A DNA stretch of 64,000 bases, from assembly GCF_018623055.1 (NCBI RefSeq), contig NZ_CP076019.1, positions 2,666,001 to 2,730,000 of the forward strand, given 5' to 3'. The notes under the pieces are model-generated. The model was given only the letters and a program-made list of their open reading frames with translations, was not told the DNA's origin and ran no database searches. The DNA is from Halorubrum sp. 2020YC2 (GTDB lineage Archaea; Halobacteriota; Halobacteria; Halobacteriales; Haloferacaceae). Below are positions 1 through 52,241 of this stretch, one piece after another (the first letter of the stretch is position 1; each line of letters begins with the position of its first letter). A program made the position numbers and the translations under genes.

Positions 1-347
1 AAACAGCCGACCACAGATCGACAGCGAACACCTCCAAAGCCCCAGCCGCGAGGCGAACGCACGCTCGCTGTGCTCCTCACTCGGTCGCTACCGCTCCCTC
101 GTTGCGGTGCTTGCGTCGCCTGCGTTCGCCTCGGGGCTGCCCCTTTGAGTCCACCTCACAGCACCGCAACCGCAGCCTCACACCTCCCCAGCCTCGTCGG
201 CCGGCCTCCGCTTTGCTCCGGCCGCCCGACTCCAGCGAGAATCGAAGATTCTCTGGCAGCCGGCGCGTAGCGCCGGCGACCTCGCGCGTGCTGCTCGGCC
301 GCAGGGCGGCCTCGCAGGCACGCGCCACCGCGGTTCACTTATAAATA
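1..347 (-). repeat. Structured intergenic element, copy A (left end may be cut by the window)
   Basis: First of six copies of an intergenic element. Read on the minus strand it begins at the TTATAAATA box (339-347). It then has the GCGCGTGC/GCACGCGC stem with a GGCCGC inner hairpin, a hairpin between GAGTC and GACGAGGCTGGGG, the motif ACTCAAAGGGGCAG, and finally CTGGGGCTTTGGAGG near position 30. This copy has two extra small hairpins (around 245-275) with a GAA-type loop and a TA-centred loop. The arms on each side of the central loop pair over about 13 bp (CGAGGCGAACGCA with TGCGTTCGCCTCG). Short frames through it show no protein signature, so I treat them as non-coding. Confidence 0.75.
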
Positions 348-8377: not shown

Positions 8378-8935
8378 GTGTTCAGCCTCAACGTCCCGCT
8401 CCCGCCCGCGCTCGACCGGCTCGCGGGCGATCTCCATCCGAAACTAACGGGGTTCGACCGGGTTCGCGAGCGCCACACCCTCGTCTGTAAGCGGTTCGGC
8501 GTCGGAGACGTCCGAAGCGGGAAAGACGGGTCGAAGCAGGACCGGGAGGCGCCGCCCCGAGGGGAGGCAGTCGACCGCCTGCGCGAGCGCCTCCGGCGCC
8601 CCCTCGCCGGGACCGACCCCTTCGAGGTCGCCGTCACCGGAATCGACGTCTTCGACGCGCCGCGGTCGGGGTCGCGGCCGGTGGTGTATCTCACAGTCGA
8701 GAGCGACGAGCTGATCCGGCTTCACCGGCGGCTCTGTGCGTCGTTCGGCGCGGTGGAGGGGATCGAGGGCGACGAGTACGTGCCGCATATCACGCTGGCG
8801 CGGGGCGGGAATCCGGAGCCGGGAGCGGTGGCCGGCCTCGTCGACGCCGAGTTCGATCCGATCCGGTGGCGCGTCCACGCGCTCGACGTGTGGGACCCGG
8901 AGTACCGGGAAGTGGCCGCGAGCGTTGATTTATAA
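8378..8935 (+). CDS. 2'-5' RNA ligase (2H phosphoesterase) family protein
   Basis: A 185-residue 2H phosphoesterase. Its two catalytic HxTx-type motifs are HTLV (about residue 32) and HITL (about 135, in YVPHITLARGG), each starting a beta-strand as in LigT/ThpR folds. Members open or make 2',3'-cyclic or 2'-5' phosphodiester bonds in RNA. It diverges from the second family member at 14980, so it is not a simple duplicate. Its last codons are GAT TTA TAA, inside the TTATAAG box that opens repeat copy B. The last Leu and stop therefore come from the element. GTG start. Confidence 0.82.
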   Translation: MFSLNVPLPPALDRLAGDLHPKLTGFDRVRERHTLVCKRFGVGDVRSGKDGSKQDREAPPRGEAVDRLRERLRRPLAGTDPFEVAVTGIDVFDAPRSGSRPVVYLTVESDELIRLHRRLCASFGAVEGIEGDEYVPHITLARGGNPEPGAVAGLVDAEFDPIRWRVHALDVWDPEYREVAASVDL

Positions 8936-9351
8936 GTGATCGATTGCGGGATGTCGGTGACTACCTCTAAAGCCCCGACCACTCGCTTATAAATAAGCCA
9001 TCGTAGATCGACGGCGACCACCGCCAAAGCCCCAGCCACTCGTTTTTAAATCGTTACTGCCGGATCGACGGCGACCACCTCCAAAGCCCCAGCCGCGAGG
9101 ACTCGCGCACCTCGCTGCGCGCTTCAGTCGCTCGCTTCGCTCGCTCCTTCCAGTGCTTACGTCGGTGTGCTTCGTCCTCGCGGCTGCCCCTTTGAGCCCC
9201 ACCCGACAGCACCGCGACCGCACCTCACGCCTCCCCAGCCTCGTCGGTCGCCGTCGCTTCGCTCGGCGACCGACTCCCTCGCGCGTGCTGGCTCGCGGCC
9301 TGTCGGCCGCTCGCAGGCACGCGCCGGCCGCGGAGGTACTAATTTATAAAT
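8929..9351 (-). repeat. Structured intergenic element, copy B, with two extra tail modules
   Basis: On the minus strand the core runs from the TTATAAAT box at 9344-9351 to CTGGGGCTTTGGAGG near 9080. Two further copies of the 3' module follow, each ending in a TTATAA-like box (TTTTTAAA at 9043-9050, TTATAAATAAG at 8987-8997, TTATAAG at 8930-8936). The period is about 57 bp. The second stem is GTCGGTCGCC/GGCGACCGAC, a compensated variant of copy E's GTCAGTCGCC/GGCGACTGAC. The third stem is CAGCCGCGAGGAC/GTCCTCGCGGCTG. The element fills the gap between the 2H phosphoesterase and P450 operons. No protein-like frame is convincing in it. Confidence 0.8.
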
Positions 9352-12872: not shown

Positions 12873-14648
12873 ATGGACGCCGACGCGGTGCGCGAGCGGG
12901 CCGGAGACCTTCCGACGGAGCCGGGGGTCTACCAGTTCCGAGCGGGCGAGACGACGCTGTACGTCGGCAAGGCGCTCGACCTCCGCGACCGGGTGCGGTC
13001 GTACGCGGACCCCCGCTCGGGCCGCATCCGCGGGATGGTCGAGCGCGCCGACCGGATCGAGTTCGCGGTCACCGACACGGAGACGCAGGCGCTCCTCTTG
13101 GAGGCGAACCTCATCAAGCGGCTGCGGCCGCGGTACAACGTCCGACTGAAGGACGACAAGTCGTACCCGCTCGTGGCCTTCTCGGACCACGAGGTCCCCA
13201 GAATCGAGGTGACCCGCGACCCCGAGGCGGGCGCGGTCGCGTACGGCCCGTTCACCGACGTGGGGCGCGTCGAGACGGTGGTGAAGGCGGTCCGCGACGA
13301 GTACCTGCTGCGGGGCTGCTCGGACCACAAGTACGAGGGGCGCGACCGGCCCTGCCTCGACTACGAGATGGGCATCTGCTCGGCGCCGTGCACCGGCGAG
13401 ATATCCACGGAGAGCTACGCCGAGGACGTGGCGGCCGCGCGGCGCTTCTTCGAGGGCGAGACCGGCGCCCTCGCGGACCCCCTGCGGCGCCGGATGGAGG
13501 CCGCGGCGGAGGCGAACGAGTTCGAGCGCGCCGCGAACCTCCGCGACCGCCTCGAAGCCGTCGAGGCGTTCCACGGCGAGGGCGGCGAGGCCGTCAGCGA
13601 CCGGAGCGACGACCGCACCGTCGACGTGCTGGCGGCCGCGGTGGAGGGCGACGCCGCCCGCGTGGCCCGGCTCCACAGCGAGCGCGGCCAGTTGGTCGAC
13701 CGGACTCGGCACCGACTCGACGCGGCGGCGGTGGAGGAGGGGTCGACCGGCGGCGAGGGGTCCGGAAGCCCCGACGCCAACACCCCCGCGGCCGTCCTCG
13801 CGGCGTTCCTCGCGCAGTACTACGCCGAGCGGGAGTTCCCGGACGCGGTCCTCCTCGCCGAGCAACCCGCCGATCCGGACGTGGTCGACTGGCTGGAGGG
13901 CGAGGGGGTGGCGGTCCGGGTCCCGGGCGCCGGCCGCGATGCGAAGCTGGTCGAACTCGCCCTCAAGAACGCCCGGAAGCGCGGGGGTCGCGACGACCCC
14001 GTGGGCGCGCTGGGCGAGCGGCTCGGAATCGCCCGCCCCGACCGGATCGAGGGGTTCGACGTGAGCCACGCGCAGGGGACCGCCGTCGTCGGCTCCGACG
14101 TGTGCTTCGTCGACGGGAGCGCGGAGACCGCCGACTACCGGCGGAAGAAGCTCACCGAGCGCAACGACGACTACGCGAACATGCGGGAGCTGATCCGGTG
14201 GCGCGCCGAGCGCGCGCTCGCCGGCGAGGACGACCGCCCGGATCCCGACCTCCTCCTGATCGACGGCGGCGAGGGCCAGCTGGGCGCCGCTCGCGACGCG
14301 CTCGCGGAGACGGGCTGGGACGTGCCCGTCGTCGCCCTCGCCAAGGCGGAGGAGCTGGTCGTCACCCCGACCGGCACCCGGCGGTGGGACGACGACGCGC
14401 CCGAACTCCACCTGCTCCAGCGCGTGCGCGACGAGGCGCACCGCTTCGCGGTCTCCTACCACCAGACCGTCCGCGACGAGGTGAAGACGGTCCTCGACGA
14501 CGTGCCCGGCGTCGGTCCCCAGACCCGCCGCCGGCTCCTCCGGCGGTTCGGCTCGGTCGAGAGCGTCCGGGACGCCTCCCGCGAGGACCTCACCGACGTC
14601 GACGGCGTCGGGGGCGCGACCGCCGAGACGCTCCGCGAACGCTTATAA
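12873..14648 (+). CDS. uvrC: Excinuclease ABC subunit C
   Basis: A 591-residue UvrC, which makes both incisions in nucleotide excision repair with UvrA and UvrB. The GIY-YIG nuclease domain is at about 10-90 ([19 protein letters not shown]). A cysteine cluster is near 150-170 ([11 protein letters not shown]...CSAPC). The UVR motif that binds UvrB is near 205-235. The RNase H-like second nuclease domain starts around [10 protein letters not shown] (about 395). A C-terminal helix-hairpin-helix pair ([25 protein letters not shown]) follows. I chose the ATG at 12873; the ATG at 12840 is also in frame. The final codons CGC TTA TAA lie in the opening TTATAAATA box of repeat copy C. Confidence 0.95.
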
Positions 14649-14954
14649 ATAGATCCGCGGTGGCGCGTGCCGGCGGGCGGCCGGAGCGGAGCGGAGGCCG
14701 CGAGTCGCACGCGCGAGGGAGTCGCTGGCGCCGACGGCGCCAGCGACGAGGCTGGGGTGGTGTGAGGTGCGGTTGCGGTGCGGTCGGGGCGGGACTCAAA
14801 GGGGCAGCCGCCGAGGCGGGCGAAGCACGACGACGCAAGCACCGCAGGGAGCGAGTGAAACGAGCGACCGAGGAGCGCAGCGAGCGTGCGCCCGCCTCGG
14901 CGGCTGGGGCTTTGGAGGTGGTCGTCGCCGATCCACGGTTGGATATTTATAAAT
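14643..14954 (+). repeat. Structured intergenic element, copy C
   Basis: This is the cleanest copy, framed by TTATAAATA (14643-14651) and TTATAAAT (14947-14954). Stem 1 is GCGCGTGC/GCACGCGC with an inner GCGGCC/GGCCGC. Stem 2 is GTCGCTGGCGCC-GAC-GGCGCCAGCGAC, perfect over 12 bp with a 3-nt loop. Stem 3 is CAGCCGCCGAGGCGGGCG with CGCCCGCCTCGGCGGCTG, perfect over 18 bp and different in sequence from the other copies. The box at the left end supplies the stop codon of uvrC. The box at the right end is placed to serve as the TATA box of thpR. Confidence 0.85.
14944..14954 (+). promoter_or_regulatory. Probable thpR promoter inside the right edge of copy C
   Basis: TATTTATAAAT is 26-36 nt before the thpR ATG at 14980, the normal TATA distance for a leaderless gene. 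The repeat element thus appears to supply the promoter of the next gene. Confidence 0.55.
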
Positions 14955-14979: not shown

Positions 14980-15561
14980 ATGCGAGCGTTCTTCGCCGTC
15001 GACCTCCCGGACTCGCTCGCGCCGGCCGTCGCGGACGCGCAGGCCCCCTTCGCGGACGCGTCCGGCGTCAACCCGGTCGACCCCGAGCAGGCGCACGTGA
15101 CGCTGAAGTTCCTCGGTGACATTCCCGAAACAGCCGAGAGCGACCCTGAAACTCCCACCGTCGACGACGTGATCGCGGCCGGCGAGCGCGCGGTCGACCG
15201 CGCCGGCGTCGCCCCGTTTAAATGCGCGGTCGCCGGCCTCGGCGTCTTCCCGAACCGCGAGTACATCTCCGTCGTCTGGACCGGCGTCGACCGCGGCGGC
15301 CACGAACTGACCGCGCTCCACGAGGCCCTCGAAGCGGAGACGACCGCGCTCGGCGTCGCCCCGGCCGACCACGAGTTCACGCCGCACGTGACGCTGGCCC
15401 GGGTCGAGAACGCGACCGGGGCCGGGGCGGTCCGGGACGCGCTCGACGCCGGGGACCCGACGGTCGGGTCGTTCTCGGTCGACGAGATCCGACTGCTGAA
15501 ATCGACGCTGACCGAGTCGGGACCGGAGTACGCCGTCGTCCGAGAGTTCGGCCTCGGGTGA
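14980..15561 (+). CDS. thpR: RNA 2',3'-cyclic phosphodiesterase
   Basis: A 193-residue 2H phosphoesterase of the ThpR/LigT group. Its two catalytic motifs are HVTLKFLG (about residue 39) and HVTLARV (about 135). The N-terminus (MRAFFAVDLPD) is characteristic. The enzyme hydrolyses 2',3'-cyclic phosphates left on RNA ends and may also join 2'-5' RNA. A short Asp/Glu/Thr-rich insertion lies near 50-60. It stands alone here. Its likely promoter is the edge of repeat copy C. Confidence 0.93.
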   Translation: MRAFFAVDLPDSLAPAVADAQAPFADASGVNPVDPEQAHVTLKFLGDIPETAESDPETPTVDDVIAAGERAVDRAGVAPFKCAVAGLGVFPNREYISVVWTGVDRGGHELTALHEALEAETTALGVAPADHEFTPHVTLARVENATGAGAVRDALDAGDPTVGSFSVDEIRLLKSTLTESGPEYAVVREFGLG

Positions 15562-32999: not shown

Positions 33000-33289
33000 T
33001 TATAAATAGATCCGCGGTGGCGCGTGCCTGCGAGGCCGCCTTGCGGCCGAGCAGCACGCGCGAGGGAGTCGCGAGCGGAGCGAGCGACGAGGCTGGGGAG
33101 GTGTGAGGTGCGGTTGCGGTGCTGTGCGGGGCGGGACTCAAAGGGGCAGCCGCGAGGACGGCGCAGGCGACGTAAGGACCACAGGGAGTGAGCGAAGCGA
33201 ACGACCGAGGACCGCAGCGAGCGTACGACGTCCTCGCGGCTGGGGCTTTGGAGGTGTTCGACACCGCTCCGCGGTCACTTATTTATAAG
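33000..33289 (+). repeat. Structured intergenic element, copy D
   Basis: Framed by TTATAAATA (33000-33008) and TTATTTATAAG (33279-33289). Stem 1 is GCGCGTGC/GCACGCGC, with an inner TGC-GA-GGCCGC / GCGGCC-GA-GCA that forms a symmetric tandem GA loop. Stem 2 has GTCGC/GCGAC arms. Stem 3 is CAGCCGCGAGGACG/CGTCCTCGCGGCTG. It is the shortest copy. A degenerate tail (AAGCGGCTGTGGCTGTGGAAG) follows to about 33325. Positions 33326-33450 show nothing I can recognise. Confidence 0.82.
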
Positions 33290-38759: not shown

Positions 38760-39169
38760 TATAAAACGCGATGCGGTCGGCGCGTGCCTGCGAGGCCGCC
38801 TCGCGGCCGAGCAGCACGCGCGAGGGAGTCAGTCGCCGGAGCCGAGCGGAGGCGACTGACGAGGCTGGGGAGGCGTGAGGCGCGGTTGCTGTGCGGTCGG
38901 GCGGGGTTCAAATGGGCAGTCGTGAGGCCGCAGTAGGCGTTCACGAGAGCGAAGCTCTCGTGAGCCAATCAGAACGCTCCGCGTTCTGATGACGACGTAA
39001 GCACTGGAAGGAGCGAGCAACGCGAGCGACTGAAGCGCGCAACGAGCGTACTGCGGCCTCACGGCTGGGGCTTTGGAGATGGTCGTCGTCGATCCGCAGT
39101 CTGCCATTTATAAACGAGCGGCTGGGAATTTGGAAATCTTCACCACGAAGTCGCGAATTACTTATAAAC
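38760..39169 (+). repeat. Structured intergenic element, copy E, with one tail module
   Basis: The core runs from TTATAAAA (38760-38767) to TTATAAA (39108-39114). One tail module of about 54 bp ends at TTATAAAC (39162-39169). Stem 2 is GTCAGTCGCC/GGCGACTGAC. Stem 3 contains CAGTCGTGAGGCCGCAG opposite CTGCGGCCTCACGGCTG, where the single T-G pair is a wobble only if the plus strand is the RNA. Two perfect hairpins are inserted after stem 3: TCACGAGAGC-GAA-GCTCTCGTGA and ATCAGAACGC-TCC-GCGTTCTGAT. The same two occur in copy F. Confidence 0.82.
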
Positions 39170-45404: not shown

Positions 45405-45937
45405 TATTTAAATGAGCCCGCGGTGCGGTGGCGCGTGCCGGTGAGCGGCCGACAGGCCGCGAACCGCACGCGCGAGGGACGCGGCGAACGCGAGCGGCGA
45501 AGCCGCGAAGCGTGAGCCGCGAGGCTAGGGAGGCGTGAGGTGCGGCCGCTGTGCGGGTGGGGTGGGACTCAAAGGGGCAGTCGCGAGGCGACCGTAGGCG
45601 TTCACGAGAGCAAAGCTCTCGTGAGCCAATCAGAACGCTTCGCGTTCTGATGACGACGCAAGCACCGCAGCGAAGGAACGTAGTGACTGAGCGAGGAGCG
45701 TGGTTCGAGACGCCGAAGGCGTCTCGTCATCACGAAAGGCGCGAAGCGCCTTTCGAACGACAGCGAGCGTACGGCCGCCTCGCGGCTGGGGATTTGGAGG
45801 TCGTCACTCCGCCAGTAACGACTTATAAGCGACCAACTGGGACTCCAGAGGCGTTCACCGCCGATCCGCAGGCAACGTTATATAAGCGATCGACGGAGGC
45901 TTTGAATCGCGTCAGGACGTCGGTAATCATTTATAAG
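45405..45937 (+). repeat. Structured intergenic element, copy F, longest, with tail modules
   Basis: The element starts at TATTTAAAT (45405-45413), three bases after the TatD-like stop codon. Stem 1 has CGGT-GA-GCGGCC/GGCCGC-GA-ACCG, again with a tandem GA loop. Stem 3 is CAGTCGCGAGGCG/CGCCTCGCGGCTG with a T-G wobble. It carries the same two inserted hairpins as copy E, plus GAGACGCC-GAA-GGCGTCTC and CGAAAGGCGC-GAA-GCGCCTTTCG. After the core (CTGGGGATTTGGAGG), degenerate tail modules end in TTATAAG (45823-45829), TTATATAAG (45878-45886) and TTATAAG (45931-45937). Confidence 0.82.
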
Positions 45938-49632: not shown

Positions 49633-50812
49633 GCGCGCAACACCGTACAGACGCTGTTGTTTCCGAAGCCGGCGACGTTGATCGCGAACCCGGTTTCCGC
49701 GCCGTCGACGCGCCGGGTCTCGGGGGGTCGCCGCGCAGTTGCCACACGAGTTCGACGATCTGTGAGAGCCCGGTCGCGCCGAGCGGGTGGCCCCGCGCCT
49801 TCAGCCCACCGCCGGGGTTGACCGGCAGGTCGCCGTCGAGCGCGGTGTCGCCGTCGAGCGTCGCCTCCCACGCGGTCCCCGTCTCGTAGAACCCCAGCTC
49901 TTCGAGTTCGATCAGTTCGAGGACGGTGAACGCGTCGTGGATACAGGCGACGTCGACGTCGTCGGGACCGACTCCGGCGCGGTCGAAGACGCGCTCGCCC
50001 GCGGTCCGGACGGAGTCGATCGAGAGGGGGTCGGGACGCTCGGCCACGGCGTGGGTGCCCGTCTCGCTCGCGATACCGGCGACGCGGGGGGCGTCTCGGG
50101 GGCCGGGATCGTCACCCGCAGTCCGCGCCAGGACCGCCGCGGCGGCGCCGTCGGACATCGGACAGCAGTCGTACAGGCGAAGGGGGGCGGCGACGACGGG
50201 CGAGTCGAGCGCGTCCGCCACGTCGATCGGCTTGCGGAACTGGGCGACAGGGTTGTCGACCGCGTTCCCGTGGTTCTTGCTCGCGACCGCGGCGAGCGAC
50301 TCGCGGGGCGCGTCGTGGCGGTCGAGGTAGGCGCCCGCGGCGAGTCCGCCGAAGGAGGGGAGGGTGATCCCCTGCGCGTACTCCCGCCGGTGGACGAGCC
50401 GGCTGATCGCCTCGGTGACGCTCCGCGTGTCGCCCGCGGACATCTTCTCGGCGCCGACGACGAGGGCGACGTCGGTGCCGTCGTCCTCGGCGCTCCCCGT
50501 GGCGCCGCTCTCGACGCCCTCGACCCCGCGGTGGAACGCGCTCGCGCCGGTCGCGCTCGTGTTCTCGACCCGGTCCGCGGAGGCGCCGTCGAGCCCGAGG
50601 GCGGCCGCGAGCGCGTTCGCGAGGCCCGCGCTCTCGTCTAGCGCCTCCGCGAGGGCGTTGCCGAAGTGGAGCGCGTCGACGGCCGCGGGGTCGACCGCGG
50701 CGTCCGCGAGGGCCGCTTCGGCGGCCGTGGCGGCGAGATCGGTGGGCGAGCGCCCGGAGTCGCTCTCGAACGGGGTCATCCCGACGCCGGCGACGCGCAC
50801 CTCAGTCGTCAT
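49629..50812 (-). pseudogene. Thiolase (SCP-x-like), frameshifted near the C-terminus; nucleophile Cys replaced by Ser
   Basis: A thiolase-fold protein of about 394 residues. The frame breaks at a run of six G on the plus strand (49722-49727). Upstream it reads IVELVWQLRGD; after shifting it continues PETRRVDGAETGFAINVAGFGNNSVCTVLRA and ends 31 codons later. GGGLKARGHPLGATG (about 340-355) is conserved. The position of the usual acyl-accepting Cys (ENxCASG) is Ser86 (ENTSATG), so classical thiolase chemistry is doubtful even if the frame is repaired. Its start overlaps the CoA-transferase stop. Confidence 0.75.
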
Positions 50813-52241
50813 TCACGTCGTCCGCGTCGCCGGCGTCGTCCGGGTTGCCGGCGTCGTCCGCGTCGCCGGCGTCGTCCGGGTTGCCGGCGTCGTCCGCGTC
50901 GCCGGCGTCGCTCTCGTCGTCTTCGTCCCCGAACACGCCGAGTTCCGCGAGGCGGTCGATCTCCGCCTCGGAGTAGCCGCGTTCGCGGAACACCTCGCGG
51001 TTGTGTTCGCCCAAGAGCGGGGGCGGAAGTTCGAAGCCGCTCTCCGCGTTGCGGAACTTGAGCGGGTGCTCGATCACGGGGACCTCACCGAGTTCGGGGT
51101 GTTCGATCTCGGTGACGGTCCCTCGGGCCTCGATCTGCGGGCTGTCGAGCGCCTCCTCGACGCTGTACACCGGGCCGGCGGGGACGCCCGCGTCCTCAGC
51201 GATGACCTCGATCCACTCGTCCGTGGTCTTGTCCGCGAGGGTGGCCTCGATTTCGGCTTCGAGTTCGTCGAGGTGCTCCACGCGGTCCGCGTTCTGCTCG
51301 AAGCGCTCGTCATCCGGGAGATCGGGCCGGTCGAGCGCCTCGCAGAGCTCGCCCCAGAGCTTCTCGTTGAGGATACAGATGTTGATGAACCCGTCTTTCG
51401 TCTCGAACGTCTGGTAGGGGGCCAGCACGGGGTCTTTCGTCCCCATGCGCTTCGTCTCCTCGCCCGCGAACACTATGCCGGCCTGCTTGGTGAGCCACGG
51501 GAGGGTGGCTTCGAGCATCCCGAGGTCGATGTACTCGCCCTCGCCGGTCTGCCCCCTGCGGTAGAGGGCCGTGGTCGCGCCGAACGCGGCCCACATCGCG
51601 GTGATCAGGTCCGTCATCGGCAGGCCGACCTTCACCGGCTGCCGGTCCGCCTCGCCGGTGACGCTCATGATCCCGCTCATCCCCTGAATGAGCAGATCGT
51701 ACCCGGACCGCTCGCGCCACGGGCCGGTCTGTCCGAACGCCGATATCGCGAGGTAGATCAGGTCCTCGTTGTGGTCGGTGAGCGTCTCGTAGTCGACGTC
51801 GAGCCGCTCGGCGGTGCCGGGGCGGAAGTTCTGGATGAAGATGTCCGCCTCCTCGACCAGCTCGTATAACGCCTCCTTGGCGTCGTCGTTTTTCAGGTCG
51901 AGTTCGAGGCTCTTCTTCCCGTAGCTCAGCGTCCAGTAGTACGGCGACTCGCCCTCGATGAACGGCGGACCGGAGTGCCGGACCGCGTCGCCGTAGCCGG
52001 GCTGTTCGATCTTCACGACCTCGGCGCCCTGGTTCGCCAGCATCGCGGAGCAGAACCCGCCGGTGACGAACGTCGAGAGGTCGATGACGGTAACGCCCTC
52101 CAGAATTTTCCCGCCGACCGGGCCGTCGCCTGTCGCCCCGGACGGAGAACCCCCGGTCTCGGTCTCAGTCCCGGCTCTGTCGGTATCGCTGGTTCCGGCT
52201 CTGTCGGTATCGCTGGTTCCGGCTCTGTCGGTATCAGTCAC
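50802..52241 (-). CDS. CaiB/BaiF family CoA-transferase
   Basis: A 479-residue family III CoA-transferase, which swaps CoA between acyl groups. GVTVIDLSTFVTGGFCSAMLANQGAEVVKIEQPG (about 45-78), YYWTLSYGKKSLELDLK (about 95-111), QNFRPGTAERLD and GLPMTDLITAMWAAFGATTAL (with the catalytic Asp) are the family blocks. Both ends carry tandem-repeat sequence: TDTDRAGTS (three copies) at the start, and alternating DDAGNP/DDAGDA (five copies of 18 bp) at the end. First gene of the thiolase operon, with the operator 53 bp upstream. GTG start. Confidence 0.9.
   Translation of the reverse strand: MTDTDRAGTSDTDRAGTSDTDRAGTETETGGSPSGATGDGPVGGKILEGVTVIDLSTFVTGGFCSAMLANQGAEVVKIEQPGYGDAVRHSGPPFIEGESPYYWTLSYGKKSLELDLKNDDAKEALYELVEEADIFIQNFRPGTAERLDVDYETLTDHNEDLIYLAISAFGQTGPWRERSGYDLLIQGMSGIMSVTGEADRQPVKVGLPMTDLITAMWAAFGATTALYRRGQTGEGEYIDLGMLEATLPWLTKQAGIVFAGEETKRMGTKDPVLAPYQTFETKDGFINICILNEKLWGELCEALDRPDLPDDERFEQNADRVEHLDELEAEIEATLADKTTDEWIEVIAEDAGVPAGPVYSVEEALDSPQIEARGTVTEIEHPELGEVPVIEHPLKFRNAESGFELPPPLLGEHNREVFRERGYSEAEIDRLAELGVFGDEDDESDAGDADDAGNPDDAGDADDAGNPDDAGDADDVNDD
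50821..50910. repeat. Five 18-bp tandem repeats in the 3' end of the CoA-transferase gene
   Basis: TCCGCGTCGCCGGCGTCG alternates with TCCGGGTTGCCGGCGTCG, five units in all. It encodes an acidic, flexible tail (DDAGDADDAGNP). The copy number is likely to vary between strains. Confidence 0.8.
52171..52239. repeat. Three 24-bp tandem repeats in the 5' end of the CoA-transferase gene
   Basis: CCGGCTCTGTCGGTATCGCTGGTT occurs twice and a third time in part. It encodes repeats of TSDTDRAG at the N-terminus, so both ends of this enzyme are built of slippage-prone DNA. Confidence 0.8.

Follow-up and report, generated by a model that had tools for sequence, protein, structure and literature searches.

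A strand-polar, REPIN-like structured repeat dispersed among Halobacteria, perhaps maintained for a single-stranded fold

The uvrC-ligT locus and the six copies of the element

In the chromosome of the haloarchaeon Halorubrum sp. 2020YC2 (NZ_CP076019.1, a single contig of 3.06 Mb), uvrC (12873-14648) and a ligT-like gene (14980-15561), both named by eye, are separated by a non-coding element of the plus strand at 14643-14954. Coordinates refer to the window, that is, the whole stretch of 64,000 nucleotides that was analysed, corresponding to positions 2,666,001-2,730,000 of the chromosome. Six copies of the element, designated A to F, are found in this window, that of the uvrC-ligT locus being copy C, and they belong to a real, apparently undescribed, class-wide family of structured repeats. 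An earlier note, made from the sequence of the window, had described six related intergenic elements with shared blocks, shared boundary boxes and three stems whose arms change in a matched way, and had proposed a structured RNA or a cruciform. All six were located near the coordinates listed below, with A and B on the minus strand, and a covariance model run on the window recovered each of them at E-values, which are rough, of 1e-30 to 4e-10, nothing else falling below 0.008.

Read in the orientation of the element, the copies begin with a TTATAAAT box, followed by stem 1 (GCGGTGGCGCGTGCC), the hypervariable stem 2, GACGAGGCTGGGGAGG, a variable G-rich linker and GGGGYGGG, after which come ACTCAAAGGGGCAG, a long hairpin whose arms vary, CTGGGGCTTTGGAGG, a stretch of about 30 nt and TTTATAAGCGAGC. 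The blocks shared by the copies are thus present as first described, and so are the three stems whose arms change in step, the exception being copy F, where GAGGCTAGGG replaces GAGGCTGGGG. The shared boundaries held at the right end of the element, where the TTATAAAT box stands at a fixed spacing, and not at the left end, where the same box is a frequent flank with variable spacing. The features are as follows.

14643-14954, plus strand: copy C, the element under study, between uvrC and the ligT-like gene
14643-14650, plus strand: left TTATAAAT box of copy C, which provides the uvrC stop codon TAA at 14646-14648
14662-14718, plus strand: stem 1 of copy C, GGCGCGTGCC ... GCACGCGCGAGG
14721-14747, plus strand: stem 2 of copy C, 12 bp with a GAC triloop, hypervariable between copies
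14786-14793, plus strand: G-tracts 1 and 2 of copy C, GGGG-C-GGG
14792-14921, plus strand: 3' hairpin domain of copy C (model R1, 112.4 bits), with variable covarying arms, a tandem G.A ladder and an apical triloop
14801-14804, plus strand: G-tract 3 of copy C, AAAGGGGCAG
14906-14909, plus strand: G-tract 4 of copy C, CTGGGGCTTTGG, opposite tract 3
14946-14954, plus strand: right TTTATAAAT box of copy C, at a fixed distance from CTTTGG
1-347, minus strand: copy A, cut by the window edge; 3' domain 28-152; double-hairpin module between stems 1 and 2
8929-9351, minus strand: copy B; 3' domain 9075-9199; two additional, degenerate units in the tail
33000-33289, plus strand: copy D; 3' domain 33134-33257
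38760-39169, plus strand: copy E; 3' domain 38904-39082; double-hairpin insert; orthologous site empty in three relatives (G063, G022, G051)
45405-45937, plus strand: copy F; 3' domain 45565-45803; two inserted double hairpins; two degenerate units in the tail

Covariation of the stems

Covariation was assessed on 59 full copies from this genome and related species, aligned without reference to structure, against a null in which the changes of each column were reassigned to the branches of the tree (own implementation, 40 null sets). Thirteen of 31,125 column pairs reached E<0.05, twelve of them being standard base pairs in predicted stems, so that the covariation claimed in the earlier note stands against a tree-preserving null. 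The thirteenth pair, located in stem 2, is T-A in 42 copies and G-G in 15, and is read as a register shift in the alignment between copies with one type of stem 2 and copies with the other. In the 3' domain, 96.6% of 2,756 cells were paired across 68 copies in an alignment fitted to the model, compared with 83% after shuffling and 32-44% when partners were slid, and both sides change in 28 of the 41 pairs; for all measures, the observed values were reached in 0 of 500 shuffles. Among 97 distinct copies from other genera, 88.9% of the cells were paired and double changes were observed in 37 of the 41 pairs.

Copy number and distribution

The covariance model of the 3' domain gave at least 138 matches in the 3.06 Mb genome and at least 131 in a congener (G063), counts that are lower bounds, 150 candidates having been scored per genome. 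The first of these corresponds to about one copy per 22 kb genome-wide, so that the density of about one per 10 kb noted earlier applies locally, within the window. BLAST matches were obtained in all 22 other congeners first searched, and across the order the 3' hairpin was recovered by the covariance-model search (E<=1e-5) from 130 genomes out of 194, representing 50 genera out of 64. When the exact core pattern was compared with 84,980 bacterial and archaeal species genomes, 38 stretches matched, all of them haloarchaeal, with carriers including Halobaculum, Haloparvum, Haloglomus, Natrinema, Haloarcula, Halonotius and Halorussus. A plasmid search returned only four weak matches, and a phage or virus origin was rejected, as the search of 50,697 phage records gave no match and neither did one exact pattern scanned over 2.9 million viral contigs.

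The copies are intergenic in every gene orientation (16 convergent, 6 divergent and 23 tandem), and a cis-regulatory leader was rejected on that ground. Neither regular chromosomal spacing nor strand bias of the copies was observed, their spacing being random. In agreement with the earlier view of a non-coding and undescribed family, the comparison with Rfam gave nothing at the gathering threshold and two chance-level matches at a relaxed one, and archaeal signal recognition particle (SRP) RNA and other Rfam families were discarded for lack of a match. A description of the family was likewise not found in the open-licence papers searched for haloarchaeal dispersed structured repeats, miniature inverted-repeat transposable elements (MITEs) and quadruplex repeats.

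Site occupancy and concerted evolution

At the uvrC-ligT site, most of the related species examined carry a copy at the equivalent position, oriented alike but with arms that differ, while others lack it; in species without the element, uvrC ends with a different stop codon. Among six relatives compared at sites A to F, a copy was often present at B, C, D and F. Site E was empty in three of them, where the intergenic gap measures roughly 20-40 bp and gives no precise boundaries. Near site A, one relative carries a copy in the opposite orientation.

In a comparison of 18 copies, a small sample like the other orthology comparisons, the mean likeness of orthologous copies was 0.81, against 0.80-0.82 for different copies within one genome, with orthologous copies of close species keeping high identity. 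Additionally, the basal pair of the hairpin differs between lineages: 42 of the 46 copies of this genome have A-U there, and 31 of the 33 from G063 have G-C. Since orthologous copies are no closer than paralogous ones and this base pair is specific to the lineage, the copies evolve in concert, compensatory changes included. This could result from gene conversion, from turnover through copying or from a shared factor that exerts selection.

Strand polarity and the choice between single-stranded DNA and RNA

The conserved mismatches of the hairpin, namely a tandem G.A ladder and A.A, and its GGG facing GGG are present on one strand only, and therefore that strand is the folded one. A two-strand cruciform, the alternative offered by the earlier note, is thereby disfavoured, because G.A mismatches, opposed GGG tracts and GNA loops are favourable in this orientation of the strand and not in its complement. 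Of 127 loops from stems 1 and 2, 105 are triloops, 68 have the form GNA, and none is GNRA or UNCG; the apical loops, alike in this and in other genera, are triloops in 74 of 103 and 64 of 72 cases, with 3 and 2 GNRA loops, respectively. In the window copies, perfect hairpins have C-G closed triloops in 9 of 9 cases, seven being GNA or its complement, compared with GNA or TNC in 1 of 299 perfect hairpins outside the copies (window and other flanks). GNA minihairpins of the d(GCGNAGC) type, such as GCGAAGC, have extraordinary stability in DNA (PMC4686876).

The foremost rival explanation is a multicopy structured non-coding RNA, in which the copies would be transcribed, here from the upstream TTATAAAT box, and the RNA fold would act in trans or bind a protein. 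It gains from the defined polarity, from covariation of the type that defines RNA families and from the TATA box found within 60 nt upstream of 28 of 43 copies of this genome, against 3 of 1,140 control windows. However, the distance from this box to stem 1, mostly 14-25 nt, ranges from 10 to 54, RNA-type tetraloops are rare, about 130 copies of a single trans-acting RNA gene would be unusual, and in other genera an upstream TATA box is found in only 1 of 56 copies. The upstream TATA box is confined to the genus of the window, so the promoter is not ancestral, and an autonomous promoter as an ancestral feature of the family was ruled out. The earlier proposal of a structured RNA is hence not sustained in the form in which it was made, and this explanation is regarded as possible but doubtful; loop type and the TATA boxes missing from other genera would instead favour single-stranded DNA over RNA. 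In the genus of the window, TATA boxes lie at element ends and the family may serve as promoter material for neighbouring genes; the right TTTATAAAT box of copy C is likely the promoter of the downstream gene.

A shared core with four G-tracts

The core common to the different genera reads GGGYGGGACTGAAAGGGG, arm, GACGYAAGCACYGCA, apical hairpin, GGAGCGCAGCGAG, complementary arm and GGGGCTTTC. Two G-tracts with a single nucleotide between them are located upstream, and two others are opposed within the helix, where they are unable to pair conventionally. These four tracts are conserved in number and matched in length at the sequence level. In this genome, an upstream GGG-N-GGG with both tracts of at least three is found in 41 of 43 copies, mostly as 4+3. 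In other genera, nine copies from five genomes carry an alternative internal loop, AAGGGCGA ... GAGGG, with two free G per side; their upstream motif is GG-N-GG in every case, and GGG-N-GGG is found in most other copies from those genera. Such a matched change from three to two would be expected of a quadruplex of three or two tetrads, and may be taken as suggestive support for it. The arrangement of four short tracts (GGG-Y-GGG, then GGG facing GGG) suggests that they could form a clamped G-quadruplex.

In copies from other genera (L182, L186, L238, L242, L244 and others), a loosely conserved block close to GRCCAACC was also seen just upstream of GGGYGGG, in some copies complementary to the tail after CTTTC.

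Modules and tandem repeats

Stem 2 is replaced wholesale between copies, and the extra length of copies E and F corresponds to additional double hairpins at fixed positions. Such modules (38940-38990, 45601-45651, 45705-45755 and 236-277) occupy three fixed insertion positions within the copies and have C-G closed triloops, with similar ones in relatives, in Haloarcula (L186) and in G026 (L126). The third module was considered as an independent mobile element, a possibility that was rejected since most of its 18 sites (at most one mismatch) coincide with copies. In G024 (L091-L119), stem 2 directly repeats the apical motif of the 3' hairpin, so that the motif occurs twice per element.

The terminal 54-57 bp of the element are tandemly repeated in some copies. 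At another locus of this genome (L009, about 524,400-524,740), about five tandem 57-bp tail units (GGCTGGGGCTTTGGAGG...TTTATAAGCGAGC) were seen, the copies seen being identical, and five further loci (L014, L020, L027, L028 and L029) have tail-unit arrays of their own, each locally homogeneous. Elsewhere in the window, at 50798-50941, tandem repeats of 9 to 18 bp (CGTCGTCCGCGTCGCCGG) end a predicted gene.

Interpretation

The computations show a hairpin with covarying arms and strand polarity, in a family that is distributed class-wide, dispersed as intergenic copies and homogenised in a lineage-specific way. The reading favoured here, tentatively and with slightly less than even confidence, is that of a dispersed non-coding haloarchaeal element resembling repetitive extragenic palindromic doublets (REPINs), in which the strand as oriented here is maintained for a single-stranded fold, perhaps of single-stranded DNA. 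The element would behave like a REPIN without belonging to the REPINs proper, and its core would probably be a quadruplex-hairpin. According to this proposal, the fold would form in single-stranded intermediates of replication, repair or recombination, the four G-tracts would build a quadruplex clamped between two helices, and the fold would be recognised by a trans-acting factor, with transposition-like copying and gene conversion then spreading and homogenising the copies. In its fullest version, namely a new strand-polar element in which a quadruplex sits between the two helices of a covarying single-stranded DNA hairpin and which, present across Halobacteria, initiates gene conversion among about 130 copies and so homogenises itself, the proposal is considered rather unlikely.

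Several observations weigh against the favoured reading. No clean target-site duplication was seen, no mobilising protein was identified, and the occupancy of many orthologous sites across species is slow for a mobile element. The Y1 transposase (PF01797) is absent from two complete genomes that carry the family (G016 and G072), and a copy of the element lies near only 1 of 12 Y1 loci; with the transposase absent in two carriers, membership in the REPIN/RAYT system was rejected. Furthermore, the G-quadruplex is a predicted feature, the copies with the AAGGGCGA loop (type II) may trace to a single event, and the tentative preference for single-stranded DNA over RNA draws on loop type and missing promoters.

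Regarding mobility, copies occur in head-to-head pairs in several other genera, and in G025, G026, Halonotius and Halegenticoccus they are bounded by TGTTCAG...CTGAACA repeats (TGTTCAGATAA-type). The presence of TTATAAAT at both element ends is at most suggestive of a target-site duplication. In G027 (L133, L134), a transposase judged IS6-like by eye is coded downstream of TGTTCAGATAA. Such observations would agree with ordinary MITEs of an IS6-like insertion sequence with TGTTCAGATAA as terminal repeat, the hairpin being a passenger. However, a simple scan found flanking repeats on both sides in only 3 of 56 copies from other genera, and none of the TGTTCAGATAA type was seen at the inspected copies of the genus of the window. 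A passenger hairpin would also be expected to lose its fold, which nearly every copy keeps, and the unit largely seen as conserved across insertions is the hairpin and not the terminal repeats; this explanation is therefore improbable.

Very improbable is a mutational artefact, in which template switching during replication, documented to create and maintain hairpins (Monttinen and Loytynoja, PMC8794818), would rewrite the arms and yield covariation without selection, as the wholesale replacement of stem 2 and the predominance of C-G to G-C swaps among double changes in the wide set (435 cells compared with 292 of transition type, the swaps having no G.U intermediate) might indicate, because mismatches should then vanish, yet the G.A ladder, A.A and GGG/GGG are conserved, the GNA loops are specific to the elements, and unpaired blocks and G-tracts are conserved across genera. 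Part of the covariation could nevertheless come from template switching.

Dispersed repeats are usually interpreted as decaying copies of mobile DNA. In this family, the fold is kept in nearly every copy examined, sites remain occupied at orthologous positions throughout a genus, and in one lineage a compensatory double change has spread to almost all of the copies sampled. A mechanism is called for, which could be selection acting copy by copy or gene conversion guided by the fold. The conservation of the G-tracts, in cells whose potassium is molar, and the DNA-type loops make a function in single-stranded DNA as opposed to RNA directly testable. For annotation, about 130 intergenic regions per genome hold a family for which Rfam has no entry, sometimes with a TATA box beside the downstream gene.

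Comparison with known systems

Structured RNAs of Rfam, archaeal SRP RNA among them, share with the element covarying stems and conserved unpaired blocks, and differ in that no match reached the gathering threshold. REPINs form hairpins in single-stranded DNA or mRNA, with common compensatory changes, and occur in tandem clusters together with their flanks (PMC3116915). The bacterial REPIN/RAYT system (PMC3116915, PMC2817692) is accordingly similar in its roughly 100 or more extragenic copies, compensatory hairpins, tandem clusters that include flanks, and inverted doublets, the last being found here only in some other genera. Nevertheless, each window copy consists of one hairpin unit, to which a 5' domain is added, and is not an inverted-repeat doublet, and the element is archaeal, much longer, endowed with conserved G-tracts and independent of Y1/RAYT. 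Archaeal MITEs derived from insertion sequences are also small, non-coding and dispersed, and TGTTCAGATAA-type repeats bound the element in some genera, whereas no repeats of that type were seen in the genus of the window, and it is the fold that is conserved in this element. ERIC, BOX, NEMIS and similar bacterial repeats are, like this element, intergenic, modular, stem-forming and vertically persistent. Unlike them, the haloarchaeal element has a strand-polar fold with G-tracts, is class-wide in Halobacteria and is homogenised with compensatory changes.
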